Positions 19,795 through 59,123 of a stretch of DNA of 64,000 nucleotides are shown here, one piece after another. The stretch covers positions 2,078,001-2,142,000 of the forward strand of contig NZ_OX365700.1 in assembly GCF_947241125.1 (NCBI RefSeq), written 5' to 3'. The first letter of the stretch is position 1. Each line of letters begins with the position of its first letter. The position numbers were made by a program, and so were the translations under genes. The DNA comes from Nitrospira tepida. GTDB lineage: Bacteria; Nitrospirota; Nitrospiria; Nitrospirales; Nitrospiraceae. The notes under the pieces were generated by a model, which was not told where the DNA came from, made no database searches, and saw only the letters and a program-made list of their open reading frames with translations.

Positions 19795-19842
19795 TCTCCG
19801 GTTTCCGGAAACGATCGGCTTGTCATTCGGAGAGAGATCTAC

Positions 19843-22882: not shown

Positions 22883-22914
22883 GTGGCAGTGATTTAGAGG
22901 GGGAGGTCTGTTTC

Positions 22915-24126
22915 ATGATGAGAAGGCAGGGACTGTTGGTGCTGGTCGTCGCGGGGCTGCTCTGCGGCGGAGCCCTGTCCTGGTCGAGTGCGGGGGAATC
23001 CTCAAGGCAGGCTCGGGAGCCCGAACGGTCTCCACGCGAGGTGGCGGAAGAGATTGCGCGCTTCTCCCGGACGGTGCTGCAACCTTCCCAAGGCCGGGAG
23101 TCTCGCGAAGTCAATCGGGATGGGATCTATCTGCTCTTGTCCCTGTCCATGCCGGACGAAGTGCTGAAAGGATATTTTGCCGAGGCAAAGCTGCTGGGCG
23201 CGCGCATCGTGATCCGGGGTCTGCTCAATGCGCCTTCGTCCGGCGACGGGCCGGTCAAATTGTCCTTCAAGGCGACAGGCGAACGGTTCCGGCAGTTGAT
23301 GGGGACTGATGAGGCGTTGCTGGCAGCGGTCTCGATCGACCCGGTGCTCTACGGGCGTCTCGGGGTCTCGGAAGTCCCGGCTCTCGCGATCGTGAAAGGG
23401 GACCATGATGCGGTGGTGATCGGCTCGACTTCCGTTCGCCATCTGTTGGAGGTCCTGGCGCGCGAAGAGAGAGTCTATCGCGCGCTGGCGGAGTGGTTTG
23501 ACCGGCGCCAGCGAGGGTTCCTGCAAGGAGGACCGACGAGTGAACCGCAACCGAGCCTCCCGATGCCGAGCGGGCATCAGCGGATCCGCACGGACTCTCC
23601 GACCTGGTCGATTGCCGAACGCGACATGAAACAAGTGCTGAGCGAGGCGGTGGCCAGGGCGGATTGGAACGCGATCAAGCGCCGTGCGGAGGACGCGACG
23701 GCGCGGAAGATCCATCGAGGCCCTCAGCTTCCCTTGCCGGAAACTCAGCAACCTCGCAGCTTCCTGGTGGATGCTACGGTCCGATTCCCGGACGATGTGA
23801 CAGATCCGAAAACGGGAACTCTCTACATCAAGGCGGGCTCGACCGTGAATCCGCTCGACAAGGTGAAGCTCCCCTACACGCTCATCTTCTTCAATGGCAA
23901 CTCGCAGGAACAGGTGCAATGGGTTCAGCACTACCTCCTGGCTCACGAGGACCGTCCGCTGAAACTGCTCGTGACGGAAGGGCATATCGGTCCGCTCGGT
24001 CGGCTGTTGCACCGTCCGGTCTACTGGGCGAATCTGCTGATGTATGAGCGGTTCGGCCTGGTCGCTGTCCCGAGTCTGGTGACGCAGGAAGGCAATCGAT
24101 TCCGGGTTCAGGAGATCGTGCCATGA
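22915..24126 (+). CDS. traW: TrbC-TraW fusion, pilus assembly protein
   Basis: A 403-residue exported protein with two recognisable parts. Residues 1-25 are a signal peptide. Residues about 65-190 match TrbC (LLLSLSMPDEVLKGYFAEAK, GARIVIRGLL, LGVSEVPALAIVKGD; thioredoxin-like without CxxC). Residues about 225-403 match TraW (SIAERDMKQVL, FLVDATVRFPDDVTDP, TVNPLDKVKLPYTLIFFNG). In F these are separate genes; fused forms occur in other MPF-F systems. A GGGGGAGG site lies about 11-13 nt upstream of ATGATG. The stop overlaps traU by ATGA. Confidence 0.9.
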   Translation: MMRRQGLLVLVVAGLLCGGALSWSSAGESSRQAREPERSPREVAEEIARFSRTVLQPSQGRESREVNRDGIYLLLSLSMPDEVLKGYFAEAKLLGARIVIRGLLNAPSSGDGPVKLSFKATGERFRQLMGTDEALLAAVSIDPVLYGRLGVSEVPALAIVKGDHDAVVIGSTSVRHLLEVLAREERVYRALAEWFDRRQRGFLQGGPTSEPQPSLPMPSGHQRIRTDSPTWSIAERDMKQVLSEAVARADWNAIKRRAEDATARKIHRGPQLPLPETQQPRSFLVDATVRFPDDVTDPKTGTLYIKAGSTVNPLDKVKLPYTLIFFNGNSQEQVQWVQHYLLAHEDRPLKLLVTEGHIGPLGRLLHRPVYWANLLMYERFGLVAVPSLVTQEGNRFRVQEIVP

Positions 24127-25259
24127 GACAGGATCGGGCGGAACGGTCCACTGCGGCTAAACCCGAAGAAAGTGCGCGAGTTCAGCAGCGCTCTAGGCTG
24201 GCAAGCCTCGCTGGACTGCTCCTCCTGTTCGCAGTTCTCCTGGGCGGAACGATGCCGGACTCCGCGGAAGCCGTCTGTCCGAAGAACACGAATATCCTGG
24301 CCGATACCCTGGTGAAGACCTGCTGGGAATGCATGTTTCCCATCAGTCTCTTCGGGTTCACGCTCACGGAGGTCGGGGAGGACTCGACTCGTCCCGCCGT
24401 CGGGCCTGGGATCTCCGCCGTCTATCCGCCTCAGCTCTGCGGCTGCGTGTGTCTCACGCCGTACCTCTGCGTCCCGGGCATACCGCTTGGCATCTGGGAG
24501 CCGGTCCGACTGGTCGAAATCGTCCGCACGCCGCTCTGCTTCCCGGCTCTCAACGGGATCACGTTGGGGCCGGAGTTCGTGTTCGAGGGACGCGGATCGG
24601 CCAATACCAATATGGATTCCCCCGACCTGGACTTCACCTTTTACCATTCGCACTTCTACATCTTTCCCCTCTGGGCCATCGTCGGCATCGCGGTGGACTG
24701 GGCTTGTGTCAATCCCAGCGCCGCCGGCGACGAGATCGATCTGGCGTACCTGTCTGAGATCGACCCCTCCTGGAACGATGACCTGCTGGCACTCATTCTG
24801 TTCCCGGAAGCCCTCTTGTTGGGGAATCCGCTCACGGTCGCGGCCTGTGCCGCCGATTCCCTTGCCGCGTCAGCTGGTTTTCCCATCGATCCCTTGTTCT
24901 GGTGCGCGGGAAGTTTCGGCTTGATGTACCCGACGACGGGCAACGTGTCGGAGTCGAGCGGCCAGCTCAAACCAGCGGCGCTGGCCATGTCGCGCCTGCT
25001 GGCTCGGCTGGCCCGCTTCGGCACCGAGTTCTATACGGCAGCGGACGGGCCGTTGATCTGCACGGACTTTCCGACCGGCCTGATTGTGAAGAGTCAATAC
25101 AAATACCAGTTGCTTTACCCGATCCCCAATGTCCCGGCGCCCTGTTGCCAGCCGATCGGTCGAACGGTGCTGATGTGGGGGATGGGCAAGATGGTGCCGG
25201 TGATCGGAGAAGACTTCGTCTTTCTCCTGTGGAAGCTGCAGCGTTGCTGTCTGCTGTAG
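24123..25259 (+). CDS. traU: TraU, mating-pair assembly protein
   Basis: A 378-residue Cys-rich periplasmic protein, close to the usual TraU length. It has a long N-terminal leader (LASLAGLLLLFAVLLGGT, ending SAEA) and the family pattern: VKTCWECMFPISLFG, CGCVCLTPYLCVPGIPLGIW, EPVRLVEIVRTPLCFPALNG and the conserved C-terminal CCQPIGRTVLMWG. About 16 Cys residues would need DsbC. It is translationally coupled to traW and is the last gene before the foreign recombination module that separates it from traF. Confidence 0.93.
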   Translation: MRQDRAERSTAAKPEESARVQQRSRLASLAGLLLLFAVLLGGTMPDSAEAVCPKNTNILADTLVKTCWECMFPISLFGFTLTEVGEDSTRPAVGPGISAVYPPQLCGCVCLTPYLCVPGIPLGIWEPVRLVEIVRTPLCFPALNGITLGPEFVFEGRGSANTNMDSPDLDFTFYHSHFYIFPLWAIVGIAVDWACVNPSAAGDEIDLAYLSEIDPSWNDDLLALILFPEALLLGNPLTVAACAADSLAASAGFPIDPLFWCAGSFGLMYPTTGNVSESSGQLKPAALAMSRLLARLARFGTEFYTAADGPLICTDFPTGLIVKSQYKYQLLYPIPNVPAPCCQPIGRTVLMWGMGKMVPVIGEDFVFLLWKLQRCCLL

Positions 25260-40449: not shown

Positions 40450-40927
40450 TGAGAAATGAGCTGTACTGTCGTCTCTGGCCGTGACGCTCGGCCGTGGGGT
40501 CGTGTCCCCGATTTCCGTAGAAATTGGCTTCTCCCCGCATTGACTCTACAAAATAACCTCCACATTTCCCTTATACGAGGCGATCGGCATCCGGCCTGAC
40601 CTCCAGATCCCCCCTCAGGTAGCCGCGGTACTCTCCAAGGCGGTCAGGATCGCACTGAGCTGCTGCCAGCCATCGATCCGCCGCGTGCTATGACGGGGAC
40701 GTATTACTAAGTTGGGGGCCGCAAGGTTTCAATTAGGCCATGGGACGAATGGAGAGAGAGCCCCTTACCGGAAAGAGGGTTAGGAATGGAAGAATACCCC
40801 CTATTACGAAAATCACCCCTTTACCAGTCCCCAGCTGGACGCGGCGTTGTACTTCATGGCTCTCCGGCGATGGGCGACTGTGCGAGGGTTACTCAGAATG
40901 GAGTTTGGTTTCTGGTGGAGTAGGAGT
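40450..40927. other. intergenic region at the right boundary of the recombinase module
   Basis: 478 bp with no convincing complete gene. A hairpin CCGATTTC-CGTA-GAAATTGG (40508-40527) follows the zinc-ribbon gene and may end its transcript. On the minus strand, about 40727-40615 keeps an open frame reading APNLVIRPRHSTRRIDGWQQ before a stop, possibly the tail of a lost gene. Between 40759 and 40828, related C-rich motifs (CCCCTTACC, its inverse GGGTTAGG, CCCCCTATTAC, CCCCTTTACC) recur. The right end of the inserted module should lie here, but no repeat matching the 25392-25429 region was found. Confidence 0.4.
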
Positions 40928-41836
40928 GTGAGAAAAAAGATCGTGCGAGGATTCATCGTGATGGTCTGTGCGGTGCTCGCGCCGGTTGTCGCGCGGGCCG
41001 GGTCTCTCCCTGACCAGCATCCGTCCTCTTCCCGCTTGGCGAATGAGTTTTATGAGCGAGCCAGGGAGGGATGGTTCTGGTATCAGGATCCGGTCGAGGA
41101 AGACGAAACGGATGCGGTTGTCAGACCGGTGACGTTGGCCACTCTTCCGCTCGAAGCCTGGCTGGACCCCGCCAAGTATCGCAGCCTCCTCAAGCGGGTC
41201 CCTATCGAACAGGAAGACTTGAGCACGCTGCCGGCTGGGATGCTGAGGGAGTTGGCCTCGGCCAAACGCGAGGCCGCGTTGGATGCCCCCACTCCAGAGA
41301 CCGTGAAGACGTACATCATCGCGCAACGCGCCGTGTTCAAGCGCTCCGAGGACTTCACGTCCATGTGGCAGTTGGCGATGTTTACGAACCCGCAGCTCGA
41401 TTTTGCGACCGAGCATCCGACCTCGCAGTTCGGCCACGACGTGGAGGCACAGGCGACGCAAGAGGTGGACGAGCGGCTCCTCTCATCCGCAAGGGCGAAC
41501 CATGTCGGCCTGTTCTTCTTCTTCACGTCCACCTGTCGATTTTGCCAGGAGCAGTCGAAGATTCTGAAGCTGTTCGCCGATACCTACCAGATCGAGGTCT
41601 TTCCGGTCACCCTGGACGGGCAGGGGCTGAAGGAATTCCCGAAGGCTGCGGCGGACAACGGCATGGCCGAACGCGTGTCATTGCAGAAGGTCCCGACGAT
41701 CTATCTCGCGATACCCCAAGAAAACTTCCTGGTCCCGATCGGCTCCGGTGTCATGACATTCAACGAGCTTCGCGAGCGTGTGCTCACGATCCTGAAGCAG
41801 CGCCCTCAGTTGAGGAGAAAAGCGGGCGATTCGTAA
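40928..41836 (+). CDS. traF: TraF, thioredoxin-like pilus assembly protein
   Basis: A 302-residue F-type TraF. The signal peptide starts after VRKKIVRGF (VMVCAVLAPVVARAG). The mature part has REGWFWYQDPVEE, the family's hydrophobic/aromatic start, the thioredoxin fold FFFFTSTCRFCQEQSKIL with C203-x-x-C206, and the cis-Pro segment LQKVPTIYLAI. GTG 40928 is chosen for signal-peptide length and the GGTGGAG upstream; starts at 40847 or 40898 would add an unlikely extension. It should help assemble the pilus in the periplasm together with TraH and TraU. Confidence 0.88.
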   Translation: MRKKIVRGFIVMVCAVLAPVVARAGSLPDQHPSSSRLANEFYERAREGWFWYQDPVEEDETDAVVRPVTLATLPLEAWLDPAKYRSLLKRVPIEQEDLSTLPAGMLRELASAKREAALDAPTPETVKTYIIAQRAVFKRSEDFTSMWQLAMFTNPQLDFATEHPTSQFGHDVEAQATQEVDERLLSSARANHVGLFFFFTSTCRFCQEQSKILKLFADTYQIEVFPVTLDGQGLKEFPKAAADNGMAERVSLQKVPTIYLAIPQENFLVPIGSGVMTFNELRERVLTILKQRPQLRRKAGDS

Positions 41837-41854
41837 CAGCCCGAAGAGGTGACT

Positions 41855-43192
41855 ATGGCAACACGGATACTGCGGACCCTGTTCATCGTCGGCGCGATGG
41901 TCTGGATGCCGGCCGTCGCCTCGGCTCAGAGCGTCAATGATTCCCTCCAGTCCATGTTCGATAGCTGGGGCGTCGTCAGCACGGCGATACCGGGGGCCTA
42001 TGAGAGCCAAAGCCGCGGGTATCTCGCCGCGGGCGCCTACTCGATCCGGCTGAACAACGACAACTTCTCGCTCTGGAATATCAACCCTCCACGGTTCCGG
42101 CGGGGCTGCGCGGGCATCGACACGTACCTGGGCAGTTTCTCCTACGCCAAGCTGAACCGGTACGTCGATATGCTCCAGCAGTTCGGCGGGTCCGTGGTGT
42201 TGGGCTATGCCTTCCAGCTCGCGATGAAAGAACTCTGCGAGACCTGCTCGAACGTCCTCAACATGATCGAGACCGCGTCCAGGACGTTGAATGCGCTGGG
42301 CCGGATTCAACCGTGCCAGGCCGGACAGGAGGTGGGGGAAGCGCTCGCCCAGAGCATGAAGGATCCGGACAAGCTCAACCAGTACGCGTACCGGAAATGG
42401 CAGCAGTTCAAGACCCAAACCGGCATCACCGGGGATCCGTGGGAAGATCGGGACAGCGCCCAGGATAATACGTCGGCTGATGCGGCAGCGGCTCTGAAGG
42501 GCACGGAATACGACATCACGGGGAATCTCGTGTGGAACGTCTTGAAGCAGGCAGGAGTGGAAGATCAGACCGCTCGCATCATCATGTCGACGACCGGCAC
42601 AATCATTGTGAATGACCAGGGCCAGTCCGAGTATCATCCGCCCACGATCAACTTCTCCGACTTGATCGATGTGGTGCCGGCGGAGACCGTCCGGGTCTAC
42701 GCCTGCACCGATGATCCCGCCCAATGCCTCCAGATCCAGCCTCAGAATGAAACGGCGATGGAAGGGTTCAAGAGCCGCACGGCAACGGCGCTGCAGAACA
42801 TCGTGACCAATCTCTATAGTAAGACCGCGATGAGCGCGGCGGATGTGACGCTGGTGAACATGAGCCCGATCCCGGTGCTGAAGATCTTGACGGATTACGG
42901 GCATCCGAATGAAGTCGCGACCCAGTTGGTACGGATGACGAGCGAGGTGGTGGCCATCGAAATGGCGATTCAATGGATGGAGTGGGCCGTGAACAACGCG
43001 ATCCAGCAGGGGGCCAAGATCAAACAGCTCAAGCCCAGCTTTGCCGTGGATACGGCTGAATTCCGGAAAGAGGCGCACGAGGTGCTCGCCGAAGCCTACG
43101 CCGAGGCAGCGAAGCGTTCGGCCCACCTCCAGAATATCTACAACGTCACAAAGATGGCCCTGGAGCAGGGACAGTATCGCACGGCCCGCTAG
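41855..43192 (+). CDS. traH: TraH, pilus assembly protein
   Basis: A 445-residue protein near the normal TraH length. It has a signal peptide (LRTLFIVGAMVWMPAVASA), then the TraH N-terminal pattern SVNDSLQSMFDSWGVVSTAI and GAYESQSRGYLAAGAYSIRL. Conserved Cys and helical segments follow (CAGIDTYLGSFSY, ELCETCSNVLNMIE), and a C-terminal coiled coil ends it. ATG 41855 has AAGAGG 6 nt upstream. It is periplasmic or outer-membrane-associated and acts with TraF and TraU. Confidence 0.93.
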   Translation: MATRILRTLFIVGAMVWMPAVASAQSVNDSLQSMFDSWGVVSTAIPGAYESQSRGYLAAGAYSIRLNNDNFSLWNINPPRFRRGCAGIDTYLGSFSYAKLNRYVDMLQQFGGSVVLGYAFQLAMKELCETCSNVLNMIETASRTLNALGRIQPCQAGQEVGEALAQSMKDPDKLNQYAYRKWQQFKTQTGITGDPWEDRDSAQDNTSADAAAALKGTEYDITGNLVWNVLKQAGVEDQTARIIMSTTGTIIVNDQGQSEYHPPTINFSDLIDVVPAETVRVYACTDDPAQCLQIQPQNETAMEGFKSRTATALQNIVTNLYSKTAMSAADVTLVNMSPIPVLKILTDYGHPNEVATQLVRMTSEVVAIEMAIQWMEWAVNNAIQQGAKIKQLKPSFAVDTAEFRKEAHEVLAEAYAEAAKRSAHLQNIYNVTKMALEQGQYRTAR

Positions 43193-43225
43193 GGTGCCGT
43201 GAGCTGAGGCCGGAGCGGACAGCCA

Positions 43226-46200
43226 ATGTGGCAGATCTTTACGTTCGGGAACGGGGATGTCATCGCGGCGGTGATCACGGGCCTCAAGGTGATGATGACC
43301 ACGGGGGCTTATGAAAGCCTCTTCAGGCTCGGCCTGCTCGGCCTGGTGGTCTTCGCCTTGCTCCATGTGACCTTCAACCGTCGGTTCCTCGGCCCCCTAC
43401 TGATCGGCGCGGTCGGGCTGCTGTACGCCTCGGTATTCGTGACGGCCGACGTCTCGATCGAAGATCAGGTCAATGCGGCGGTGCCCGACACGATCGTGAC
43501 CGGGGTGCCGGTGCTGATCGCGTTTCCGGCCTACGTCTCTGGTCAGGTGGGGTATCACCTCACCTCCATCACCGAGACGGCGCTCTTGTTGCCGACCGGC
43601 TATCGTTCCACGGGATCGGTGATCAACCGCCCGTTGTTCGAGACGCAGAAGCTGCTCGACTTCACGCTCCCTGACAGCGATCTGTGGAAAAACCTCGTCC
43701 AGTATCTCATGAACTGCACGCTGAAGGAGATCGACTACAACCAACTGAACCGCACGGCTGTGGAGAAGGCGACCGATGCTCTTGGCGCGATCGCGGCGAC
43801 CAATCCCGCTCTGAGTTCACCGTGGTATCAGAATGGCAATATCCAGCCCACTGCGCAGCTCTGCACGGACTTCTACGCGAACGTCATCACGCCGGGCTTT
43901 ACGACACCGGCGCCCGAATATCTGGAAGCCACCCAGAAGCTGCGTTCGTCGCTCGGTGCGGACCCTGCGACTCCTGGAGACGAGTTGCCAGTGATTGATC
44001 AACTCCGGACGACCCTGCTCGGTGTGCCGGGACAGACTTCGGACCAGGTTCTCCGGAATATCGTGATCGTGAAGGCCTGGAAGGAGGCATGGGCCCAGAG
44101 GGCCAAGACGATGAACGATGTGCCGTCGGCAGTGAAGCTGGCTCAGGAGGCCACAACCCAGGATTTGAAGTATCAGGCCTATACCAAGTCCTATATCGCC
44201 GCGAAGTTCCTCCCCGTGCTCCGAACGGTCGCGGAAGGCCTGGTGTATCTGGTCACCCCGTTCATCGCCGTGATGGCCCTGTCCGGCTCCATGACTCGGG
44301 TCCTCGGCCTCTACGGGCGGAGCTTCGCATGGCTCGCCATGTGGGGGCCGCTCTATGCGGTCGTAAATTTCGTCATGTATTTCGAAGCTAACGCCAAGGT
44401 CAAGGATCTCATCATCAATTCGGGGTTCGCCGACGCCATCACGTTCAATTCGTTCGACCCGATCCGAGAGTACATCGTCGGGATCAATTCCATGGCGACG
44501 GATCTCACGCTGGCGGTACCGGCCGTCGCCTGGGGCCTGGTCTGGGCCGGAGGGAATCTCGCCTCTTCGCTCACCGGAAGTCTCTCCGCTCCTCTCTCTG
44601 CCGCCGGCCAGGAAGCAGGGCGGTTCGCTCGTGGTCACGGGCAGGTCATGTCGGAACCACCGTCCTATCTGATGGAGCCGGTTCGGATGGAGACTGCAGG
44701 ACGTTCCGCGTCGCAAGAGAGCTATACAGTCCCGGTTGGCGTCGGCGGCCTGCGGGTCGATGCGCAAACAGGGGTCTCGACTCTACATCACGCTGATGGC
44801 GGGACGACCCGCATCGGGGCGAACGGCATGGTGACCTACCAGGGGCCGACGGGAGGGTTCTCGCGGCGCGCGAGCGAGCTGGCTCCCACCGGCGCCTGGT
44901 ATGAGAGCGGCGCGTTCCGTCGCGACGAGTTCGATCACGCGGCCGGCCGGATAGTGCAGAAACAGTTCGAAGTCCGCGGGGCCACGATCGATAAAAGTTT
45001 CAGCTACGAGCATGATGGTGTCCTCCACTCGGTCCGGGAAGAATACAACCAGGAAACGGGAAGAACCGTCCGCCGCGTGGATTCCTCGATTAAGGATGGC
45101 GTGAGCCGGGTCGAGACGAGCACGCAGTGGGGGCCGCAACAGGTCAGCGAAACGGGTCCTGTCATGGCCTGGGCGGTCCATCCCGATGGCCGGCAGGAAC
45201 CGGTCACCGGCACCCTCTCACGTTCGGGTCTGCGCCTCGGCCACGAGGACTTCTGGGGCGAAGGGCAGCTGGTGACCTCCGGCGACGGCCCGACCCGCGA
45301 ATACAAGGGACGACTCACCGGACAGAAGATCAACGGGATCTCGGTCTTCGCCGTCTCGCAGGGAGGCTATAAAGAGGGCGTCGTCGGGGAGGTGCTGAGA
45401 GAGGATGCCAATCTCCGCTACTACCACAGCGCCGATGGCACCTTTTATACTCGCGAGGCGGCGGAGAGCATTGACGTGCGCAAACTGGACGGGGAGATGG
45501 AGACGATTCAGGGCAAGGCGAGGGAATTCGGTCGTGTGACTGTGGGATCAGATGAAAAGTTCCAGCACAATCCCCTCACGTATGAAATCGAAAGCACCAA
45601 GGGCGACCACAAGGCTGCCTATTCAGGGGAGATCCATGTCGATGCAGAGGGAAGGAAGTTTCTCCAAGCGACGGCGGGTGGGACAGAGCGGAGCAACAAG
45701 GATCGCTTCGTCGATGCGGGGATGGAGTATGTCTACAAGACCGGTGACAACGGCGGCAAGAGCTACACTGCGGATGGCGTGAGGCTTCAACGGATCATCG
45801 GGCTTCTTCCCGAGAATGAGGCGGTGATCAGGCAGGTGGCGACGCACGAGGAAGGGAACGTGATCCAGCTTGCCAACGGCCAGGAGCGGCGCGTCCCCAC
45901 GTCGGTCAGTCTGTCTTATTCAATTCCCGGAGGGGTGACGAAATCCTTGACCGGCAATTACGACCACCAGGGAGATTTTCACATCGCTGCCGGGCAGAGC
46001 AGGGAAGGGGTGGAATTTCTGACGCTTGACCAGTATCGCGGGCAGGAGGTTGCCGTCCGCGGCGTGAGAAGCAATCAGACGGGAGAAGCAATCTTCAGCC
46101 ACGCGGAGGGAGGCCGAAAGACAGAACTGTGGGACTATGTGTCACACGTGATGGGATGGCAGGAAAAGGAACAATACCTCAAAGACAAACCGATTCAGTG

Positions 46201-47395
46201 GAAGGATGGGACGACCGGGCAGACCCACAAGGGACATTTCTTCGGCCTGTTCGATCAGGAAGGGAACCTGCTGGAGGGCAGCGTGGTCAATGACCTGAGG
46301 AGCCAGGCGTTCGTGATGAAGCAGAATCCGCTGACGAAAGAATACGAGACCGGCTTCATTGACATGCATCAAGATCCCGATTCGCATGCCTCCGTGGCGA
46401 CCTACACGACCCTTTCTACCGAACAGATCGGCGCGGACGGGACCGCTCGGACATTGACGCTGGGGCCGCAAGCAGGGAATGGCACGAGAGAGATCCTCTC
46501 GGATATCGGAACAGGCGGGAGAAAGACCGACCTGTTCCATGACTACACCCATGAAACAGGCGGGCATTTCGTCGAGCGGTTCGAGGAATTCCATCGGATG
46601 CAGGGTGGGACTCTCTCCGAAATGCATAACACACGCATGTTCAGCGGCACCAAGTGGATTCCCGATCCCGTCCATCAGGGGCAACATCATCCCGTGCAGA
46701 TGCGTGGCTTCATGGATGAACAAGGGAACGTGGTCTACGCCGAATTTCAGAGCGGCCAGTATGGGAAGACGTGGAACTACAAGGTGGTCGATGGAAAGGC
46801 GCAATGGGGAGTGGCCGAGACCGCTCAGCCCACGTCTGGTGGACCGGGATTGACGAATTTCCGTTCGCTTTCCAAGAACGAGGTGGAATCGAGTGGCTTG
46901 GCCTCGACCCAGGTTATTGGGCCTGACGGAAAGCTGCTCTATGAGAAAGGGGATAGCGGCATACAGGTGATCGAATGGGATGTGTACAGGCAGGAACTCC
47001 AGCGACGGGTGAACATCGGCGCCGAGTATGCTGTGTTTGGGCACTGGGATGCGAAAGAACTCACCAATGAAGACAGCGGGGCGAAGCAAACTTTAAAAGC
47101 GATTGGGGCCGGCAAAACCGCTGTTGACATTGTAACGGGTGCCGGTAATTTGGCTATGACAGGTCGGCGACTTGGCGGGGCATTCGGAGGCGGAACCGGC
47201 GCTGCAGGTCCAAAAGGAGGACCACTTCCAGAAGGAGGTCCCACTGGTCGGCCTGGCATGCAGCCTGGGCTGGGGACTTCGCCGCAGAGTATGGAGGATC
47301 TCCAGAGGTTCCAGGAGGATCTTACGCATGCCCTCAAGAAAAGCGGGATCGATATTACTGGGGCGAAGGGCGCTGGTAAGCACATTCAACCGTGA
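43226..47395 (+). CDS. traG: TraG, mating-pair stabilisation protein, unusually long
   Basis: A 1389-residue protein; F TraG is about 940. Residues 1-460 are the TraG N-terminal membrane part (YESLFRLGLLGLVVFALLHV, LLIGAVGLLYASVF, LRTVAEGLVYLVTPFIAVMA, YGRSFAWLAMWGPLYAVVNF). From about 480 to 1330 comes a long hydrophilic region, rich in Gly, Asp and Tyr, with loose repeats of the kind 'GxxxYxxxxG' (TGVSTLHHADGGTTRIGANG, YNQETGRTVRRVDSS). It ends in a Gly/Pro-rich tail. The membrane part assists pilus assembly. The extension probably takes the place of F TraG's periplasmic entry-exclusion/stabilisation domain, but is not recognisable by eye. Confidence 0.88.
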   Translation: MWQIFTFGNGDVIAAVITGLKVMMTTGAYESLFRLGLLGLVVFALLHVTFNRRFLGPLLIGAVGLLYASVFVTADVSIEDQVNAAVPDTIVTGVPVLIAFPAYVSGQVGYHLTSITETALLLPTGYRSTGSVINRPLFETQKLLDFTLPDSDLWKNLVQYLMNCTLKEIDYNQLNRTAVEKATDALGAIAATNPALSSPWYQNGNIQPTAQLCTDFYANVITPGFTTPAPEYLEATQKLRSSLGADPATPGDELPVIDQLRTTLLGVPGQTSDQVLRNIVIVKAWKEAWAQRAKTMNDVPSAVKLAQEATTQDLKYQAYTKSYIAAKFLPVLRTVAEGLVYLVTPFIAVMALSGSMTRVLGLYGRSFAWLAMWGPLYAVVNFVMYFEANAKVKDLIINSGFADAITFNSFDPIREYIVGINSMATDLTLAVPAVAWGLVWAGGNLASSLTGSLSAPLSAAGQEAGRFARGHGQVMSEPPSYLMEPVRMETAGRSASQESYTVPVGVGGLRVDAQTGVSTLHHADGGTTRIGANGMVTYQGPTGGFSRRASELAPTGAWYESGAFRRDEFDHAAGRIVQKQFEVRGATIDKSFSYEHDGVLHSVREEYNQETGRTVRRVDSSIKDGVSRVETSTQWGPQQVSETGPVMAWAVHPDGRQEPVTGTLSRSGLRLGHEDFWGEGQLVTSGDGPTREYKGRLTGQKINGISVFAVSQGGYKEGVVGEVLREDANLRYYHSADGTFYTREAAESIDVRKLDGEMETIQGKAREFGRVTVGSDEKFQHNPLTYEIESTKGDHKAAYSGEIHVDAEGRKFLQATAGGTERSNKDRFVDAGMEYVYKTGDNGGKSYTADGVRLQRIIGLLPENEAVIRQVATHEEGNVIQLANGQERRVPTSVSLSYSIPGGVTKSLTGNYDHQGDFHIAAGQSREGVEFLTLDQYRGQEVAVRGVRSNQTGEAIFSHAEGGRKTELWDYVSHVMGWQEKEQYLKDKPIQWKDGTTGQTHKGHFFGLFDQEGNLLEGSVVNDLRSQAFVMKQNPLTKEYETGFIDMHQDPDSHASVATYTTLSTEQIGADGTARTLTLGPQAGNGTREILSDIGTGGRKTDLFHDYTHETGGHFVERFEEFHRMQGGTLSEMHNTRMFSGTKWIPDPVHQGQHHPVQMRGFMDEQGNVVYAEFQSGQYGKTWNYKVVDGKAQWGVAETAQPTSGGPGLTNFRSLSKNEVESSGLASTQVIGPDGKLLYEKGDSGIQVIEWDVYRQELQRRVNIGAEYAVFGHWDAKELTNEDSGAKQTLKAIGAGKTAVDIVTGAGNLAMTGRRLGGAFGGGTGAAGPKGGPLPEGGPTGRPGMQPGLGTSPQSMEDLQRFQEDLTHALKKSGIDITGAKGAGKHIQP

Positions 47396-51410: not shown

Positions 51411-51588
51411 TTCTGCCTCGGTAGCAACCAGATGATGCGCAGCTTCCTCCAGAACTAATACAGGAGCGGAGGCGAAACGCAAGCCAAGGCAGAAGGGGCA
51501 AGTTGGCAGTCACGGGCGCGTCGAACTGGGGGAAAGCCCCTGACAGAGGCGGGAGTAATACAAAGGACGGAGGAAGGAAGCCGGCTTG

Positions 51589-52215
51589 ATGGAGAAGATC
51601 GGGGACTTCGTGCTGGGTCGGGTTGTGAAGGCCTTACCGGACCGGGACAGTTACCTCATCCTAGTCCATGGCACGCAGCCCTTCGCTGTGCTTCCGAAGC
51701 AGTATGCCGACCGGCCCTATCGGGTCAAGGACACAATCTCGGCAGCGGTGTACCGGTTGGGTGAGGTGTATCCGGTCTTGTCCCAGCGCTGTCCCCATTA
51801 CATCCGCCGTATTTCGGAATCCATCCTCCGTCCTGTGTTGGCGGCTGGTGAAGTCCGGATACGTCGGGTCGCCACGGGCCTCGGTTCGCCGTTTGTCAAG
51901 ATCGCCGTCGAGAGTGAAGAGGGAGTCGACCCGGTCAGGTTGTGTGTGCCCTACCGTCAGAGCTACGCCAGCTACACCAGACTGATGGTGTCGTTTGTCC
52001 GGTACTCGACGGACCTGGGACGATTCATCCGCAATGCGCTGGCACCGGCACCGGTCGATCGTATCAGACGGATCGACGTGTTCCGGGAGGAGCAGATGGC
52101 GCGGGTACTGGTCCCGGCCGAGTGCAAGGGATATTTCCTGGGAAAGGGCGGCCTGAACATCGCGCTCGCGAGCAAGCTGACATCAGTGGCGATCGAGCTG
52201 AGGACAGAACAGTGA
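51589..52215 (+). CDS. NusA-like KH-domain protein
   Basis: A 208-residue protein. Its C-terminal two thirds resemble the KH1-KH2 pair of NusA: SILRPVLAAGEVRIRRVATG and SPFVKIAVESEEGVDPVRLC correspond to NusA KH1 and its entry. The end, ARVLVPAECKGYFLGKGGLN with IALASKLTSVAIEL, matches NusA KH2 with a G-K-G-G loop (canonical 'AIGKxGQNxRLAxxLtGw'). The NusA RNA-polymerase-binding N-terminal domain seems shortened or replaced. It would bind RNA and affect elongation or termination. ATG 51589 has AGGAAGG about 12 nt upstream. It heads the rightward block ending with membrane transfer genes. Confidence 0.7.
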   Translation: MEKIGDFVLGRVVKALPDRDSYLILVHGTQPFAVLPKQYADRPYRVKDTISAAVYRLGEVYPVLSQRCPHYIRRISESILRPVLAAGEVRIRRVATGLGSPFVKIAVESEEGVDPVRLCVPYRQSYASYTRLMVSFVRYSTDLGRFIRNALAPAPVDRIRRIDVFREEQMARVLVPAECKGYFLGKGGLNIALASKLTSVAIELRTEQ

Positions 52216-52241
52216 TAGTCGCTCCGGGAGAGGAGGGTTCC

Positions 52242-52982
52242 ATGGCATCGGCAACGCAACAGAATGGACAAGCAGGATCGGCGAGAAAGGAAGAGCAGGG
52301 GACGAATGGGCGGACTGGTCCAGCTGGTCAGGGAAGGAATCGCCCGATGCGCGGACGTCCCAGCCCCGAGGAACGGGCCGAGCACAACCGCGAACGGCTG
52401 CAAGATCCTCAGAGCCTGTTGCTCCTGCCGCGCACGCCCGAGGGGAGGGTTATCGTAGGGATGCTCTTCCCCCTGGATAAGGCTGTCAATCGGCTCCGGC
52501 TCAGCGCAGGACATTCCCTATCTGTCGGTGAGGTGCAGGCGCAGCTAGATCGTATCCATGAGTGGGTGCACTTGGGATACGAACTTCTGAAGGCGATGGG
52601 GGTCAGTGAGCAGGATTTCGCACCAGCGCCGGTCCTGAACTATCAGTATCGCCTCACCCTCGCCGGGCAACGGAATGCGCGGGTGATCACCCCGCGATCC
52701 GAGGAAACGAAGAAGGTGTCGCGGGTGGCGGAGAAGCTGGATGGAGTGATTCTTCACACACGGATGAGTTGCGACGATTTATCGCAGACGGAGCATCTGT
52801 TCACGAAGATTCACGAACTGATCAGGCGCCTCCACGAATTGATCGCGGATTTCTGTGCACAGGTGGAGTTGCCCTACCGAACGCCACGCGAAGCGGAGGA
52901 CTTGTTTAGCGAGCCTCCGGACCGAGGCGCTCAAACGCCCATGACGGCGGGAGGAACTGTCCCTCCTCGGATAGCGACGTAA
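52242..52982 (+). CDS. hypothetical protein following the NusA-like gene
   Basis: A 246-residue protein. Residues 1-60 are disordered and rich in Gln, Gly and Arg (AGQGRNRPMRGRPSPEERAE). Residues 70-225 are mostly helical (VGMLFPLDKAVNRLRLSAGH, LDRIHEWVHLGYELLKAMG, LFTKIHELIRRLHELIADF). ATG 52242 is selected because AGAGGAGGG lies 4-5 nt upstream; the longer open frame upstream is overlap with the previous gene. It is 26 bp behind the NusA-like gene, hence probably cotranscribed. No family is recognised; the basic N-terminus suggests nucleic-acid contact. Confidence 0.6.
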   Translation: MASATQQNGQAGSARKEEQGTNGRTGPAGQGRNRPMRGRPSPEERAEHNRERLQDPQSLLLLPRTPEGRVIVGMLFPLDKAVNRLRLSAGHSLSVGEVQAQLDRIHEWVHLGYELLKAMGVSEQDFAPAPVLNYQYRLTLAGQRNARVITPRSEETKKVSRVAEKLDGVILHTRMSCDDLSQTEHLFTKIHELIRRLHELIADFCAQVELPYRTPREAEDLFSEPPDRGAQTPMTAGGTVPPRIAT

Positions 52983-53036
52983 CCCGCACAGCACTCAACA
53001 TCGAGCCCAGGTGGTGGTGAACAAGGGGAGGAACGC

Positions 53037-54080
53037 ATGATGCGCCTTTGGATTTGCAGTTTGATGGCGATGTTGCTGGTCGGATGCGTGAGTAGTGAGG
53101 AATATGAGCGAGTCCGGACTCAGTATGAGCATCTCAAGGACGTGAAAACAGAGTGGGAAACGGAGAAGGACGATTTGCAGCAGCGCGTGGATGCGGTTCA
53201 TCGGGCCTACTCGAACGTGAGCAAGGATCAGGGCACGCTGCGGCTGCAACAGGACCAGACCAAGACAGAAGTCGCACGCGCCCGCGATGACGCCAGACTG
53301 CTCACAAGCAAACTGGCATCGCAGGAGTCTCGGGTCTCGGAGCTGGATCAAAAATTCGGCAAGGTCATGGACCAGCTCAGCTTCCTGGCGGAGACCAATG
53401 TGACGCTCACAAATCGGGTCGAATCCTTGATCGCCAAGATGGGGACCCTGATGGCCAGGATGAAGCCAGTGGCCTCGGGAGATCCGAAAGCCAAAGCTCC
53501 CGAACTACGCAAGGAGGCTGGCGCGAAGGACGGAGAAGGTCGGCCGGATGATGCGCTGCGGGAAACGGTCTCGAAGGTGGGTCCGAACACCACGGTTCCT
53601 TCGAACTCTGGGGAGGAAAGTAAGCAGACGGAGAACACCCAGTCTCCCGCCGTAGAACAGGCCATGCGGCAACTTGGAGTCAAAGCCGACCCGTCGGCCG
53701 TTGGGAGAGGAGCCGGGAAATCCGCTGCGGCCGTGAAGAACAGTCCGTTCACACCGGCGTCAAAGATCGCTCAGGGATCTGTCGATGGCAAGGGGCAGCG
53801 CTCTCCCGTGGAAACAAGCGGGAGTGCCATCCGGGATCCGGGGATCAAGAAAGGCGAACCAGAGCGGAAAGCAGGCGCCCAGGGGGCTCTGGGTCCGAGC
53901 GAGGGCACTGTGGCGGAAAGGATATCGATTCCGACCGAGACGTCTGGTTCACGGATTGGTCCTCCAGCGGAGCCTCTTGCCGCACCGCCACCTGGGACAC
54001 TGACCTTCTCGCCTCAGCCGGCTGCCGACACCACCGTCCCGGAAAAAGGGGAGAAGAAGGGTGATGGCAAAGCGAGATAA
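53037..54080 (+). CDS. coiled-coil lipoprotein
   Basis: A 347-residue protein with lipobox MLLVG-C at residues 13-17. A long coiled coil follows (about 20-140: YEHLKDVKTEWETEKDDLQQ, LTSKLASQESRVSELDQKF). The last 200 residues are Ser/Pro/Gly/Lys-rich and disordered. GGGGAGG precedes ATG 53037; the next codon is also ATG. It is likely anchored in the outer membrane and may bridge the periplasm in the transfer machinery. The 3' end overlaps the next gene by about 17 bp. Confidence 0.65.
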   Translation: MMRLWICSLMAMLLVGCVSSEEYERVRTQYEHLKDVKTEWETEKDDLQQRVDAVHRAYSNVSKDQGTLRLQQDQTKTEVARARDDARLLTSKLASQESRVSELDQKFGKVMDQLSFLAETNVTLTNRVESLIAKMGTLMARMKPVASGDPKAKAPELRKEAGAKDGEGRPDDALRETVSKVGPNTTVPSNSGEESKQTENTQSPAVEQAMRQLGVKADPSAVGRGAGKSAAAVKNSPFTPASKIAQGSVDGKGQRSPVETSGSAIRDPGIKKGEPERKAGAQGALGPSEGTVAERISIPTETSGSRIGPPAEPLAAPPPGTLTFSPQPAADTTVPEKGEKKGDGKAR

Positions 54081-54543
54081 GAAGGACATCGACTTTCTGA
54101 GTACGCAGAGTTATCCCGGTCGAGAGGTCGAGGCGTTAGGGCTGGTCGTGGAGATCCACACGGTGGGATTGGGCACGTTTCGCGACTATATCGCGCGGAT
54201 TATGGACATCTTGGGTGGCCGGGTGAACACCTACGATAAGCCGGCTCGCAAGGCCATGGAGAAGGTGTTCGATAGTCTGCAGGACCAGGCTGGGGCTCTC
54301 GGTGCTGATGCGGTGATCGGGGTGGCGGTGGAAGTCTCACCGGTTCCCTTCAAAGGGATGGCCATGACCCAGGTCTTGGGATTTGGAACGGCGGTGCGAT
54401 TTCTCAGGAAGGAAGTAAGTGAGTTTGAAGGAAGGGACGGTGTGCTCCCGCTGTCGGAGGAGTCCAAACGAGTCGTGAGTGAGATGACGGCTCGTTCCGG
54501 ACGAGCGGTGGCGCGACCGACGATACCGATTCTGAAAAGCTAG
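54064..54543 (+). CDS. YbjQ-family (UPF0145-like) protein
   Basis: A 159-residue protein matching the YbjQ fold: FLSTQSYPGREVEALGLVVE, GLGTFRDYIARIMDILGG, AGALGADAVIGVAVEVSPVP and QVLGFGTAVRFL. YbjQ proteins form beta-rich pentamers of unknown function, often called heavy-metal-binding by similarity. It overlaps the lipoprotein gene and precedes traN by 11 bp. GTG 54061 is an alternative start. A YbjQ gene within a transfer operon is unusual. Confidence 0.75.
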   Translation: MAKRDKKDIDFLSTQSYPGREVEALGLVVEIHTVGLGTFRDYIARIMDILGGRVNTYDKPARKAMEKVFDSLQDQAGALGADAVIGVAVEVSPVPFKGMAMTQVLGFGTAVRFLRKEVSEFEGRDGVLPLSEESKRVVSEMTARSGRAVARPTIPILKS

Positions 54544-54554
54544 GGAAGGGGTCG

Positions 54555-56597
54555 ATGCCGCGCGTTCCGTTCCAATTCGTCGAGGTGATGCCGTCGTCGG
54601 CGGCCAGACCGCTCAGTCGATCGAGATGGCTCATGATTGTTGCGGCGCTGTCGGTAAGCTGTGCTGCGGCCTTGGTGAGACCGGCCACGGCGGCGGGGCC
54701 ATGCGACAGCGTCGCCGATGCGTATGCACGGGCTCAATGTGTGTTGGGCGAGATGCAAGCTGCTGGTTCGGTCAGCCCTGGAAACTTGGCGCCGAATATG
54801 ACGCAGACGCCTCAGTACGGCGGGGCTACCAGCTGTACAACCTCCGGCTGTTCGGGAGCGTCGCAGGAAGGGTATTTCAGCAACACGGGAGATATTGGCT
54901 CTCTCAATTCGGATTCCTCCAACGCGACGTTGACGGATCCAACGTATTCGACGCTCCAGGGGCAGAAATCGTCCAAAGATGGATGGGATGTGAGCACAAC
55001 CGCTCCGGTCAAGACCGCCGAGGCGGTGGCCTCCAGCATCACTCCGTCACCAGGACTCAGCGCGACCTGTGTGGACGTCCCGACCTGTATCGAATGGGTT
55101 CCTGGCCCGCCCTCCATCCAGACCTGCCAAGTCCCCGGGATAGCCGAAACCATGTGCTACAGAACCTGGTCTCCTTCGTTGACGGCGGCAGCCTGTTCCG
55201 CGCCCCCGAATGGGACGCCTCCGGTGGATACCGAGACCTTATTCGACGGCTGCTCGCCCTACCAAGCGTTGGCGACGAGTGGACAAGCGACGCAGAAGTC
55301 AGAGACCTGTTTGGATAATGCCACACGCACGGTGACATGCTCAGACCCGACAGGGGCCGCGATCGGGACGGGTGGCGGCTGGGGAGGGTCTCACGATCAC
55401 ACTCCCGGGATGTCGCAAGCGTGGTACGGCATCAATTATGTGATTCCGACTCCCAACGGCACAGGAGGCTACACGTTGAAATTCAGTTTCTCCGGGAATG
55501 CTGTCGGAGAAAACAAGTACGGCTGTACGAACGCGAGCGGGAGTGCCGGAACGGTGGTGGTGTCAGAAGGTGGGGCAACCTCGATGACAGGCAGGCCGCC
55601 TTTTTGTAATCGTAAGTGTGGCTGCTGGGGCAACGGGATGACGTTTGTCCTGGGAACGGCGATCTGGACGGGACCGACGACGTTTCAGATTCCATTTACC
55701 TTTTGGTGGGAGGCCCATGCCTATAGCGTCACGATCACGGGTGGGCTCACGTGGCAAAGCTATAACGTGAGTCCGCAGTCCGGGTGCTGGAATGAGCAGC
55801 AGACCTGGCAGATTCAGAACCAGGCTCCCGATACCTGCCAATCGTATGTGGCGGCGGGCTGTACGCAGATCGGGTCGAGTTGCTCGCAATTCAATACCAC
55901 CACCGGGACCTGCGAGATGTACACCAACACCTATTCCTGTGCGTCGACGCCCGTGTGCGACAAGACCGTCACGATGAAGCAATGCACTCAATGCGGAACG
56001 CCTGGGAGCTATGTGCCGTTTTGTGTGAATACGTCCACGCCGCCGGACCAATCTCTGGCTCTGTCCGCCACGTATCTCCAGCTGATCAAAGACGTCGAGA
56101 ACGACTGGGATACGAGCAGTTTGCGAGTCTTCAACGGAACGAGGATGGCCTGCGATTACAGCACCATTGCGTCCGTGCTGATCAACTGTTGTGACGCGAG
56201 CGACCCGAGCAAATTGTTGGGAACCTGTTCGGACGAGGAGATTCAACTCGCAAAGGATCGGCAGTTGTACAAGGCCCACTACGTCGGCGATCGCTGCGTC
56301 GAGTGGATCAGCTTCGGGCTGGGAAAGGTCTGCATCCGAAAGGAGCAGGTGTTTTGTGATTTCAAGTCGGAACTGGCCCGCATTGTCCAGGAACAAGGCC
56401 GCGCCCAAATCGGTTGGCCCTGGGGTTCCGCCGATGCGCCAGAGTGTAGTGGGTTCAGCATCACGCAATTCTCCTCGTTGAATTTCGCCGCCATGGACTT
56501 TACCGAGTGGTACGTGCACGTCAGCGCGAATATCGATCCGGCGGCCGTGGCTTCCGACATGAACGCGAAGATTTGCGCCTACAGCGGAAAGTGCTAG
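54555..56597 (+). CDS. traN: TraN, outer-membrane mating-pair stabilisation protein
   Basis: A 680-residue Cys-rich exported protein. A signal peptide begins about residue 25 (WLMIVAALSVSCAAALVRPA). The conserved TraN tail is seen in MACDYSTIASVLINCCDASD, RCVEWISFGLGKVCIRKEQV, FCDFKSELARIVQEQGRAQI and the GWPWGSADAPECSGFSITQF stretch. The middle, with Gly/Thr/Asn-rich beta segments, is the receptor-contacting variable part in this family. It follows AGGGAAGGGG. It lies 11 kb from traU, unlike the F order (traU-trbC-traN). Confidence 0.92.
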   Translation: MPRVPFQFVEVMPSSAARPLSRSRWLMIVAALSVSCAAALVRPATAAGPCDSVADAYARAQCVLGEMQAAGSVSPGNLAPNMTQTPQYGGATSCTTSGCSGASQEGYFSNTGDIGSLNSDSSNATLTDPTYSTLQGQKSSKDGWDVSTTAPVKTAEAVASSITPSPGLSATCVDVPTCIEWVPGPPSIQTCQVPGIAETMCYRTWSPSLTAAACSAPPNGTPPVDTETLFDGCSPYQALATSGQATQKSETCLDNATRTVTCSDPTGAAIGTGGGWGGSHDHTPGMSQAWYGINYVIPTPNGTGGYTLKFSFSGNAVGENKYGCTNASGSAGTVVVSEGGATSMTGRPPFCNRKCGCWGNGMTFVLGTAIWTGPTTFQIPFTFWWEAHAYSVTITGGLTWQSYNVSPQSGCWNEQQTWQIQNQAPDTCQSYVAAGCTQIGSSCSQFNTTTGTCEMYTNTYSCASTPVCDKTVTMKQCTQCGTPGSYVPFCVNTSTPPDQSLALSATYLQLIKDVENDWDTSSLRVFNGTRMACDYSTIASVLINCCDASDPSKLLGTCSDEEIQLAKDRQLYKAHYVGDRCVEWISFGLGKVCIRKEQVFCDFKSELARIVQEQGRAQIGWPWGSADAPECSGFSITQFSSLNFAAMDFTEWYVHVSANIDPAAVASDMNAKICAYSGKC

Positions 56598-56615
56598 CGC
56601 AGAGGCCAAAACGGC

Positions 56616-57170
56616 ATGGTGCATATAGTTCTGGTTGGCGCGCTCCTGGTCATTGCGCTGGTTCCAATAGGAGCCGAAGCAATCGGCGGATCACCCCTCA
56701 GCGGGGACACCTACTGGTATCTGAACCATCGCTGCATTCAGGAGGCCGCGCACCGATACCAAGTCTCGCCTGTTCTGCTCGAAGCGATCGTGCACGTGGA
56801 GAGCGAAGGGAATCCCTTTGCGGTCGGGGTCAATCGCCAAGGCGAGGGTGAGTCGCGCGGCAGGCTGTCCTATACACAAGCGGCGGAGCTGGTCAGTCGC
56901 TTATGGCAGCAGGGCGCCAATTTTGATGTGGGACTGGGGCAGATCAACAGTCGCAATCTGGAACAGTATCGCGTGCATCCCGTCTATCTTCTGGATCCCT
57001 GTGTCAATTTGCAGTGGGCGGCGTTCGTGCTCCGGCAGAAGCTCGATCTGTTTGGAAACAATTGGGTCGCGATCGGACGGTATAACGGTTCGAAGCGGCT
57101 GACTCAGTATGTGTGGAAAGTCTATCGCTCGCTTGTTGATCTGGAACAGGTGAGGAAGACACGCCGATGA
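56616..57170 (+). CDS. lytic transglycosylase (SLT domain, VirB1-like)
   Basis: A 184-residue exported protein with an N-terminal signal (MVHIVLVGALLVIALVPIGA). The SLT fold is clear: AAHRYQVSPVLLEAIVHVES with catalytic Glu 62, the motif FDVGLGQINSRNL, and the end WVAIGRYNGSKRLTQYVWKV. It opens the peptidoglycan for the transfer apparatus, the role of VirB1/F orf169 proteins. It is 18 bp behind traN. The 57171-57365 interval after it has no clear gene. Confidence 0.9.
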   Translation: MVHIVLVGALLVIALVPIGAEAIGGSPLSGDTYWYLNHRCIQEAAHRYQVSPVLLEAIVHVESEGNPFAVGVNRQGEGESRGRLSYTQAAELVSRLWQQGANFDVGLGQINSRNLEQYRVHPVYLLDPCVNLQWAAFVLRQKLDLFGNNWVAIGRYNGSKRLTQYVWKVYRSLVDLEQVRKTRR

Positions 57171-57365
57171 CTTGCGAGCAAGCGGGTCTTGCTCCTGCAC
57201 CTCCCGGACGGGTTTGAACAGCTCCAGCATACGGTCGCCCCTGTGTGCGGGACACTCACCAATCGTAGCGAGTCGCTGGGAGCATTTCATATACATTCGG
57301 GAATGAAATTGAATGGTTGAACAGTGGCTGGTGGCTGTCGAGGCGGGTCGGTGGAAGACGCGGAC

Positions 57366-57782
57366 GTGAAGGTCGTTGCGATCGAGGCGGTTCCGGGCCA
57401 TGAGAATCGGGTGATGCGATATTTGCAGCAACTTCACACCGCACGGATGACTGAACTCGTGAAGGGCTATGTGGTGTGCGAGTTGGATCGGACAAAGATT
57501 GAGGCGGTGTCGAAGTTTCCTGGTGTCAGGAGAGTGATGCCGATCGAGGATCTGTGCGATGCGGGAGCGTTAGGCGCACCTCCCAGTGCTCGTGAGGAGA
57601 CGTTCGTTCCAGGAGACCTCGTGCGCATCGCCCATTGGCCGAGTGCGCCCGTGATCGGGTTCCTACGAGAGTGGGACGGGGAACAGGGGGTGGTGGACGT
57701 AGCCCTGTTCGGGCGAGCGATTCCCGTCCTCGTGACGCGGCCAGCGATTGAACCTGTTCCGTTGCCCGAACAATGGGCCTAG
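57366..57782 (+). CDS. NusG/RfaH-like transcription elongation factor
   Basis: A 138-residue protein. The N-terminal part, VVAIEAVPGHENRVMRYLQQ, LVKGYVVCELDRTKIEAVSK and FPGVRRVMPIEDL, matches the NGN domain of NusG. The C-terminal 55 residues (PGDLVRIAHWPSAPVIGFLR, VVDVALFGRAIPVLVTR) match its KOW domain. RfaH/ActX-type paralogues on conjugative plasmids act as antiterminators for long operons. GTG 57366 makes the usual NusG-like start; GTG 57351 and 57324 are alternatives. It lies 3 bp before the HD-domain gene. With the NusA-like gene at 51589 it may control elongation through the transfer operons. Confidence 0.75.
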   Translation: MKVVAIEAVPGHENRVMRYLQQLHTARMTELVKGYVVCELDRTKIEAVSKFPGVRRVMPIEDLCDAGALGAPPSAREETFVPGDLVRIAHWPSAPVIGFLREWDGEQGVVDVALFGRAIPVLVTRPAIEPVPLPEQWA

Positions 57783-57785
57783 CCC

Positions 57786-59123
57786 GTGGTGAACCGATGG
57801 CTGAGTGCGGTGGTAACCCGATTGGGATGGAAGCAATCAGTCAGCGTGGCGGCGCCACAGCCTCGTGTGCCCGACCCGATTCAAATCGATTTGTCCGACC
57901 TGGCCAAGAACCTGTGGCTACCTTTGAACGTTGATTTCATGCGGATCGAGGTCGCGCCGGAGGAGGGTCAGGCGAACGATCGGGCCATGGAGGCCGAATC
58001 GGACGCGGCTCAGCCTGGTGATACTCCTGAAGCGAAGGAGGGCGCCTCTTCCGACATGCCTCCGAATCAATCCCGATCTGTGAGCCAGCCTCTCCGACCG
58101 GAAGGCCTTCAGTCCTCCGCCCTGGTGCGGGATCTACTGGTACCGTATCAGGCCATCCTCGAGGCACAGCGTGTGTGGGTGCCTATCCTGGAAATGGTGA
58201 AGGTGCTGGAGCAGTACGGGCACTGTCCGTCAGTGGTTGTCACTGCGCCAGAGAAGGATGAGGAACACAGCGATCTATACAGTATCCGCGACACATTGGC
58301 GAGAGTGACGCTGAAGGAGCACACCCATCGCGTTACGCTGCTGGCGATGAAGAGTCTCAAGGAAACCTATCGCGACTATGAGCCGCTGGTCCCGAAGATG
58401 CTGATGGCCGCGCTGGGCCATGATCTGGGAAAGATTCCGGTGTTCCGCGCGAGCGGGATCTACACGATGGGTGACCATCCCGCTGTGAGCGCGATGAAGG
58501 TGCAGGAACTCTTCGCAGGCTCCGACATTCCGTGGCTGAAGGAGTCGTTGGATGCGATCCGAGGACATCATCGAGCGAGTAAAGACCAGTTCGACGCTCT
58601 CCTGCGGCAGGCGGACGGACGGGCGCGAGAATTGGAGGTGGCTGCCTTCTCCAAGGAATTGAAAGTGCAGCCGTGGGAAAGCTGGTTTTCGGTTCCCCGC
58701 TTGCTGGAACTGATGGAGCCGAAGATCAACCAGCTCCAGCGGGGCGGGAGGTGGTCCGCCATCTCCATCAAGGATACGGTCTACGCGCATCCTGACCTGC
58801 TCCTCGACGCGGCCCGGCGCCTCTCCGCGGAGCGCAAGGTGGTGGATCTCTCTTTGATCCGGCTTTCCGATCGCGAGAAGGCCTTGCGCCGCATCGTCGA
58901 TGAAGTACGGCGTGCTGACGTCCTTGCAGTACCGATCGGGGAGGGATTCTATGGGCGGAGCTATCAGATCATCATGAACAATCCGAGACGGAGAAATACG
59001 CTCCCACCTCGTAATTACTTTGTCCCGATCAAGCTGGAAGTCTTCAACGTGCCGGCGTCGGATCTGGAGGCCCGCAAGTCCGGTATCCTCCAAATCGTTG
59101 TCGAACTGCGGGCGATCTCGTAG
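57786..59123 (+). CDS. HD-domain phosphohydrolase-like protein
   Basis: A 445-residue protein with an HD domain in its centre: HTHRVTLLAMKSLKETYR, then MLMAALGHDLGKIPVFR (the HD pair) and later DAIRGHHRASKDQFDAL. The N-terminal 130 residues are acidic and Pro-rich, and the C-terminal 150 residues are unassigned. HD proteins hydrolyse phosphates of nucleotides or signalling molecules. The MOB-H relaxases also carry an HD-like motif, but the other relaxase features were not seen here. The start is GTG 57786 or 57789. It lies between the NusG-like gene and two membrane proteins, so a transfer-linked role is likely but undefined. Confidence 0.7.
   Translation: MVNRWLSAVVTRLGWKQSVSVAAPQPRVPDPIQIDLSDLAKNLWLPLNVDFMRIEVAPEEGQANDRAMEAESDAAQPGDTPEAKEGASSDMPPNQSRSVSQPLRPEGLQSSALVRDLLVPYQAILEAQRVWVPILEMVKVLEQYGHCPSVVVTAPEKDEEHSDLYSIRDTLARVTLKEHTHRVTLLAMKSLKETYRDYEPLVPKMLMAALGHDLGKIPVFRASGIYTMGDHPAVSAMKVQELFAGSDIPWLKESLDAIRGHHRASKDQFDALLRQADGRARELEVAAFSKELKVQPWESWFSVPRLLELMEPKINQLQRGGRWSAISIKDTVYAHPDLLLDAARRLSAERKVVDLSLIRLSDREKALRRIVDEVRRADVLAVPIGEGFYGRSYQIIMNNPRRRNTLPPRNYFVPIKLEVFNVPASDLEARKSGILQIVVELRAIS

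Follow-up and report, generated by a model that had tools for sequence, protein, structure and literature searches.

The window analyzed here, a stretch of 64,000 nucleotides from the genome of Nitrospira tepida, raises the question whether a conjugative element can carry transcription elongation factors of its own. A sequence-only reading of this DNA had noticed a NusA-like and a NusG-like protein and proposed that the two serve antitermination. The evidence assembled below tips the balance slightly in favor of the view that a family of chromosomal F-type elements in Nitrospirota encodes its own elongation-factor pair in the transfer block, for read-through of transfer operons.

Both nus genes are located on a chromosomal conjugative element of the F type (MPF-F). 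The window lies within a single 4.73-Mb contig and contains the MPF-F genes TraL, E, K, B, V, C, U, N, F, H, and G (Table 1). A match to the coupling protein (T4CP; TraG-D_C) is present just left of the window (G000:C1:2077732-2077953), and a TraI_2 relaxase match is absent from the whole genome. The nusA-like gene is the first of a tightly packed block that runs rightward and has the HD-domain gene and two small ORFs as its last members; Pfam matches of TraN and the lytic transglycosylase bear out the earlier claim that both nus genes share this block with these two proteins. Upstream of the nusA-like gene, most element copies have two divergent, leftward lipoprotein-like genes (48970-51482 in the window). 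The T4SS block is split between traU and traF by a gene for a phage-type integrase and an ORF of 660 aa (25382-26461 and 38467-40449), an arrangement that is present in N. tepida (G000), G149, and G159 and absent from the other complete copies examined. At 26432-39840 of the window, a 4470-bp unit is repeated in tandem as three copies that are 100% identical; its ORFs resemble an IS21-type transposase pair and further ORFs. G149 and G159 do not have the unit at the corresponding site, where the integrase gene is directly followed by the o38467 homolog.

Table 1. Features of the conjugative element in the window (positions are those of the window).
Feature	Position	Strand	Remarks
Sigma-like protein	3676..4278	-	Sigma-70 region 2 only
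GTAATAC motif	14145..14151	+	Upstream of T4SS (tra) block
F-type T4SS block: TraA?, TraL, TraE, TraK, TraB, DsbC, TraV, TraC, S26, TrbC, TraU	14871..25259	+	
TraF, TraH, TraG	40847..47395	+	Same F-type T4SS
GTAATAC motif	51555..51561	+	Upstream of nusA-like
nusA-like gene	51589..52215	+	208 aa, S1-KH1-KH2; heads rightward transfer block
o52242	52242..52982	+	Family without PDB or Pfam match, mostly basic; directly 3' of nusA-like in examined element copies, including G281 and G365
Coiled-coil lipoprotein-like ORF	53037..54080	+	Block member
YbjQ family protein	54061..54543	+	Block member
TraN	54555..56597	+	Mating-pair stabilization; Pfam
Lytic transglycosylase (SLT)	56616..57170	+	Pfam
nusG-like gene	57351..57782	+	Minimal NGN + KOW; start codon at 57351 conserved in close relatives
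HD-domain protein	57786..59123	+	Directly after nusG-like in elements having nusG-like; candidate relaxase or nuclease

The product of the nusA-like gene is a NusA paralog cut down to the RNA-binding half, S1-KH1-KH2. It contains the NusA-type KH2 signature originally reported for this 208-residue protein (GYFLGKGGLN, then IALASKLTSVAIEL) and matches NusA in the PDB (1hh2, E 1e-10, residues 63-205). Because residues 2-207 correspond to positions 129-338 of the 340 positions of model TIGR01953 (E 3.6e-16), the protein comprises the S1-KH1-KH2 core of NusA and not a KH pair alone; its score of 59.1 bits stays far below the equivalog cut-off of 253.4 bits. The AlphaFold2 model (pLDDT 91.9, from an alignment of 10 sequences) superposes on the S1-KH1-KH2 region of NusA (1k0r in VIA-align, Z 23.3, rmsd 2.5 Å, 203 residues), and ranks 1-17 of a Foldseek search are all bacterial NusA chains (best E 1.7e-18), so that the proposed KH pair survives both in the predicted structure and in the NusA matches. 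What is missing is the N-terminal RNA polymerase-binding domain, as the 208 residues begin at S1 (model position 129 of 340). The GXXG loop of KH1, which is present in 12/12 host NusA proteins (there as GIKG), is deleted in all 23 aligned element copies; that of KH2 is kept in 21 of the 23 (GKGG in N. tepida) and altered in G203 (GKAA) and G365 (GPKA).

The NusA-like proteins of the elements are basic (pI 9.1-9.8) and evolve under purifying selection (dN/dS 0.10-0.14), which, together with E values of 1e-10 to 1e-16 and a Z score of 23, excludes a chance KH-like match. Phylogenetically, they form a single clade (support 1.0) that a long branch separates from host NusA, which makes them old element genes and excludes a recent duplication of a host nusA. 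A homolog with 95% identity is carried by Nitrospira moscoviensis NSP M-1.

The second protein is a minimal NGN-KOW protein of the NusG/Spt5 type. It had been read as a product of 138 residues (57366-57782, + strand); the fold stands, and the start is probably the GTG at 57351, which is an ATG at the equivalent place in G044 and extends the protein to 143 aa. As a single sequence, the 57366 product matches only the KOW domain of NusG. The NGN fold was recovered by the family profile, which matches NusG (1m1g, E 2.5e-8, positions 33-130), by the AlphaFold model (pLDDT 74.8), in which a KOW barrel comes after elements in the order b-a-b-b-a-b, and by a Foldseek search, in which the top 18 matches are all NusG, Spt5, or RfaH. 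The profile also picks up the host NusG genes of Nitrospirales across part of the NGN domain. As in other specialized NusG paralogs (NusG-SP), the gene sits in a long operon, and a separate host NusG is present in several carriers (e.g., G011, G041, G079, and G082); among the NusG-profile matches in the N. tepida genome, the element copy alone reached the reporting threshold. The nusG-like gene is likewise under purifying selection (dN/dS 0.18-0.28), and such selection on both nus genes places the observation far beyond chance.

Evidence that the two genes belong together comes from their distribution among 236 Nitrospirales genomes (family calls at E < 1e-70 for NusA-like proteins, with host NusA near 1e-18, and at E < 1e-11 over the full length for NusG-like proteins). 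The NusA-like protein occurs in 22 genomes and the NusG-like protein in 20, and the co-occurrence expected for related elements was found in every case: all 20 NusG-like carriers also hold the NusA-like protein (Fisher p 4e-27, a value that overstates independence because the genomes are related). Several clearly separate lineages of the NusA-like tree carry both nus genes. The order nusA-like, o52242, (lipoprotein), YbjQ, traN, LT, nusG-like, HD, o59139, o59394 is nearly constant and on the same strand even in divergent copies; the exceptions are a traN before YbjQ in G212 and G160, a traN located elsewhere in G011, and a lipoprotein gene that escaped detection in some copies.

The pair is not obligatory. 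Two Nitrospirales genomes have the NusA-like protein without the NusG-like protein, one on a 3.4-kb contig (G145) and the other in an otherwise complete block (G125). A search of the phylum adds G281 and G365, members of other Nitrospirota families, whose F-type elements carry a nusA-like gene adjoining o52242 and genes for the sigma-like protein and ParB. Even an enlarged profile detected no nusG-like gene in the elements of G125, G281, and G365. The gene content of G281 and G365 identifies NusA-like and o52242 as the constant core, with NusG-like as a near-constant third member within Nitrospirales. Searches of PDB and Pfam with o52242 gave no match.

The nus genes mark one family of elements rather than F-type systems in general. 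TraU is present in 26 Nitrospirales genomes, only 19 of which encode the NusA-like protein. The remaining seven (G103, G107, G109, G118, G120, and G123, all of one genus, and G150), which have neither the NusA-like nor a full-length NusG-like protein, apparently represent a second F-type T4SS lineage. Among 72,556 plasmid records, at least 5000 of which carry TraC relatives, there was neither an element-type NusA-like protein nor a NusG-like match, which, together with the seven TraU-bearing genomes, excludes a general F-type trait. The plasmid matches to the NusA-like protein were rejected as element-type: the two examined adjoin rimP and other housekeeping genes, and the identity, record size, and annotation of the remaining ones are suggestive of host nusA. 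A scan of IMG/VR yielded no relative. In the phage record MT835665, a full-length nusA has a rimP-like ORF before it and an infB-like ORF after it, which identifies the record as bacterial DNA. A scan of genome contigs with narrow patterns recovered 10 loci, eight of them from Nitrospira or Nitrospirales; the NusG-like alignment is too variable for such scans of sequence collections. The other two loci (L065 and L067) are element contigs in bins labeled Nitrosospira and Mesorhizobium and reflect either misbinned Nitrospira contigs or transfer.

A search for a shared, ops-like leader motif upstream of traA and traF had been suggested. A common motif does exist, but it is not ops: the classical ops element has seven matches with up to two mismatches in the window (7.07 expected), which is chance. 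Instead, GTAATA is the top-ranked 6-mer in a comparison of upstream regions from seven elements with those from 400 kb of host genome (26/210 vs. 2/229, Fisher p 2.5e-7; gene starts by a simple ORF rule). It precedes both the nusA-like gene and the tra block in the window (Table 1), where GTAATAB occurs 13 times (3.0 expected; three of the 13 in the triplicated unit), and lies no more than 150 nt ahead of nusA-like in 10 of 12 lineages. The 44 instances near gene starts share the consensus GnnCGTAATA, frequently lie 7-35 nt ahead of the start codon, and have no second box at fixed spacing. Such an arrangement is more in keeping with a -10-like promoter box and a short leader than with an ops or nut site; the box may serve the sigma-like protein of the element. 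This protein matches Sigma70_r2 in 6/6 element copies (best E 4.8e-10; SigA in the PDB, E 3.9e-6), and none of the six has a match to region 4. Region 2 of sigma factors is the part that reads the -10 element, and the region-2-only protein may be linked to the GTAATA box. Its gene is present in most complete Nitrospirales element copies and also in G281 and G365; in G160 and G213 the protein is longer, and a segment of approximately 45 residues after region 2 appears to be repeated. Sites resembling intrinsic terminators show no clear excess in either block (tra block, 16 vs. 10.3 ± 3.1; nusA block, 4 vs. 10.1 ± 3.2).

Antitermination is the best available, albeit unproven, reading of the NusA-like/NusG-like pair, and we infer that the two may form an antitermination complex. 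The NGN domain of the NusG-like protein would contact RNA polymerase at the docking site common to all NusG-like proteins, and the NusA-like protein would grip the nascent transcript via S1 and KH2. As the latter does not have the polymerase-binding domain of NusA, it would be tethered by the KOW domain of the NusG-like protein or by its constant neighbor o52242. Together, the two proteins might displace or antagonize host NusA and NusG, allowing the polymerase to read through pauses, Rho-dependent silencing, and terminators of the long transfer operons. That nusA-like comes first in its block suggests early production of a protein that would act on the rest of the element. This interpretation is favored by the fold and family identity of both proteins, their 20/20 co-occurrence, the gene order, purifying selection, the separate element clade, the basic nature of the proteins, and the precedents among NusG paralogs. 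It is weakened by the lack of a classical ops site and the loss of the KH1 GXXG loop, and a simple NusA-NusG complex is further called into question by the missing canonical polymerase-binding domain, the NusA-like carriers without a NusG-like protein (G125, G281, and G365), and the lack of a clear terminator excess.

The same missing domain, and the constancy of NusA-like and o52242 even where NusG-like is absent, would also agree with a NusA-like protein that works away from the elongating polymerase, as a free S1-KH-KH protein that partners with o52242 and either regulates element mRNAs post-transcriptionally or serves them as an RNA chaperone, the NusG-like protein acting separately. We consider this unlikely, because S1-KH1-KH2 is the architecture of an elongation factor and because the gene tightly co-occurs, and shares a block, with that of an NGN-KOW protein. 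An architecture of NusA minus its N-terminal domain is also what a dominant competitor of host NusA might look like, which would occupy nascent RNA or host partners and lower NusA-stimulated pausing and termination; it would act in the direction of the NusG paralog LoaP, which antiterminates by antagonizing NusA and requires no further factor, so that antagonizing NusA can be enough (PMC12691694). However, a generic decoy should hit all host genes, at a cost, and the RNA-binding loop is kept only in KH2, which makes this explanation less probable still. The housekeeping versions of NusA and NusG are able to stimulate pausing and termination, and nusA-like is the first gene of its block, as would befit a negative loop in which the nus genes silence or attenuate the transfer operons and keep the element quiet until induced. 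Such a loop is highly improbable, given that the known operon-resident NusG paralogs are thought to act positively (PMC7593976).

Returning to antitermination, the pair may even be part of a larger, private kit of three components: the region-2-only sigma-like protein on the single-box promoter GnnCGTAATA, the NusA-like protein with o52242, and the minimal NusG. Tentatively, host RNA polymerase that starts at element promoters could be passed on by such a kit to an elongation complex specific to the element and capable of reaching through the transfer operons.

NusG paralogs that reside in tra operons have been proposed as antiterminators of these operons (PMC7593976); ActX is located in the pilus operons of plasmids and has no function assigned (PMC7819879). 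The NusG-like protein of the elements resembles RfaH, ActX, LoaP, UpxY, and TaA in combining NGN with KOW and in being encoded alongside long operons, among them those for plasmid conjugation (PMC7593976, PMC7819879), but it differs from them by its shorter NGN domain (approximately 70 residues, close to the length in archaeal Spt5), the lack of an ops site, and its association with a NusA-like protein. Identity between NusG-like proteins of separate element lineages is about 25-33%. Processive antitermination of a conjugation operon is known also from bipartite systems of Gram-positive plasmids, which belong to a different host group and, in the portion of the source available, are not described in terms of Nus-type proteins (PMC8955417). 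The searched literature describes neither a NusA paralog on mobile elements nor a pairing of NusA-like protein and NusG paralog on a conjugative element. Unlike operon-resident NusG paralogs, which are known, a co-inherited, element-borne NusA paralog stripped of its polymerase-binding domain does not appear in the papers found.

The almost invariable pairing of the nus genes suggests that the elements bring their own equipment to transcribe long transfer blocks. If the pair works on the polymerase, a mobile element can bring along an elongation complex of several parts instead of relying on the Nus factors of the host, and nature would have provided a test of the RNA-binding half of NusA alone, with a GXXG loop in KH2 and not in KH1. 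The nus pair also offers a handle on the control of conjugation in nitrite oxidizers of the Nitrospira type.

Among NusA proteins, the element protein shares the S1-KH1-KH2 fold (Z 23) and the GXXG loop of KH2 with housekeeping NusA, from which it differs by the absence of the N-terminal polymerase-binding domain and the KH1 GXXG loop, its location on an element, and its placement in a separate, long-branch clade. Archaeal NusA, which consists of KH1-KH2 only (2cxc, Z 13.9; 138 residues in 2cxc), likewise is small, binds RNA, and has no polymerase-binding domain; to our knowledge it also does not have an S1 domain, which the element protein keeps. A NusA is also encoded on another mobile-genome record, the 636-kb uncultured phage LR756504; unlike the element protein, it is full length (423 aa) and possesses the N-terminal domain and both GXXG loops. 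The phage-record gene is located at positions 1063-2334 of LR756504.1 (L184).
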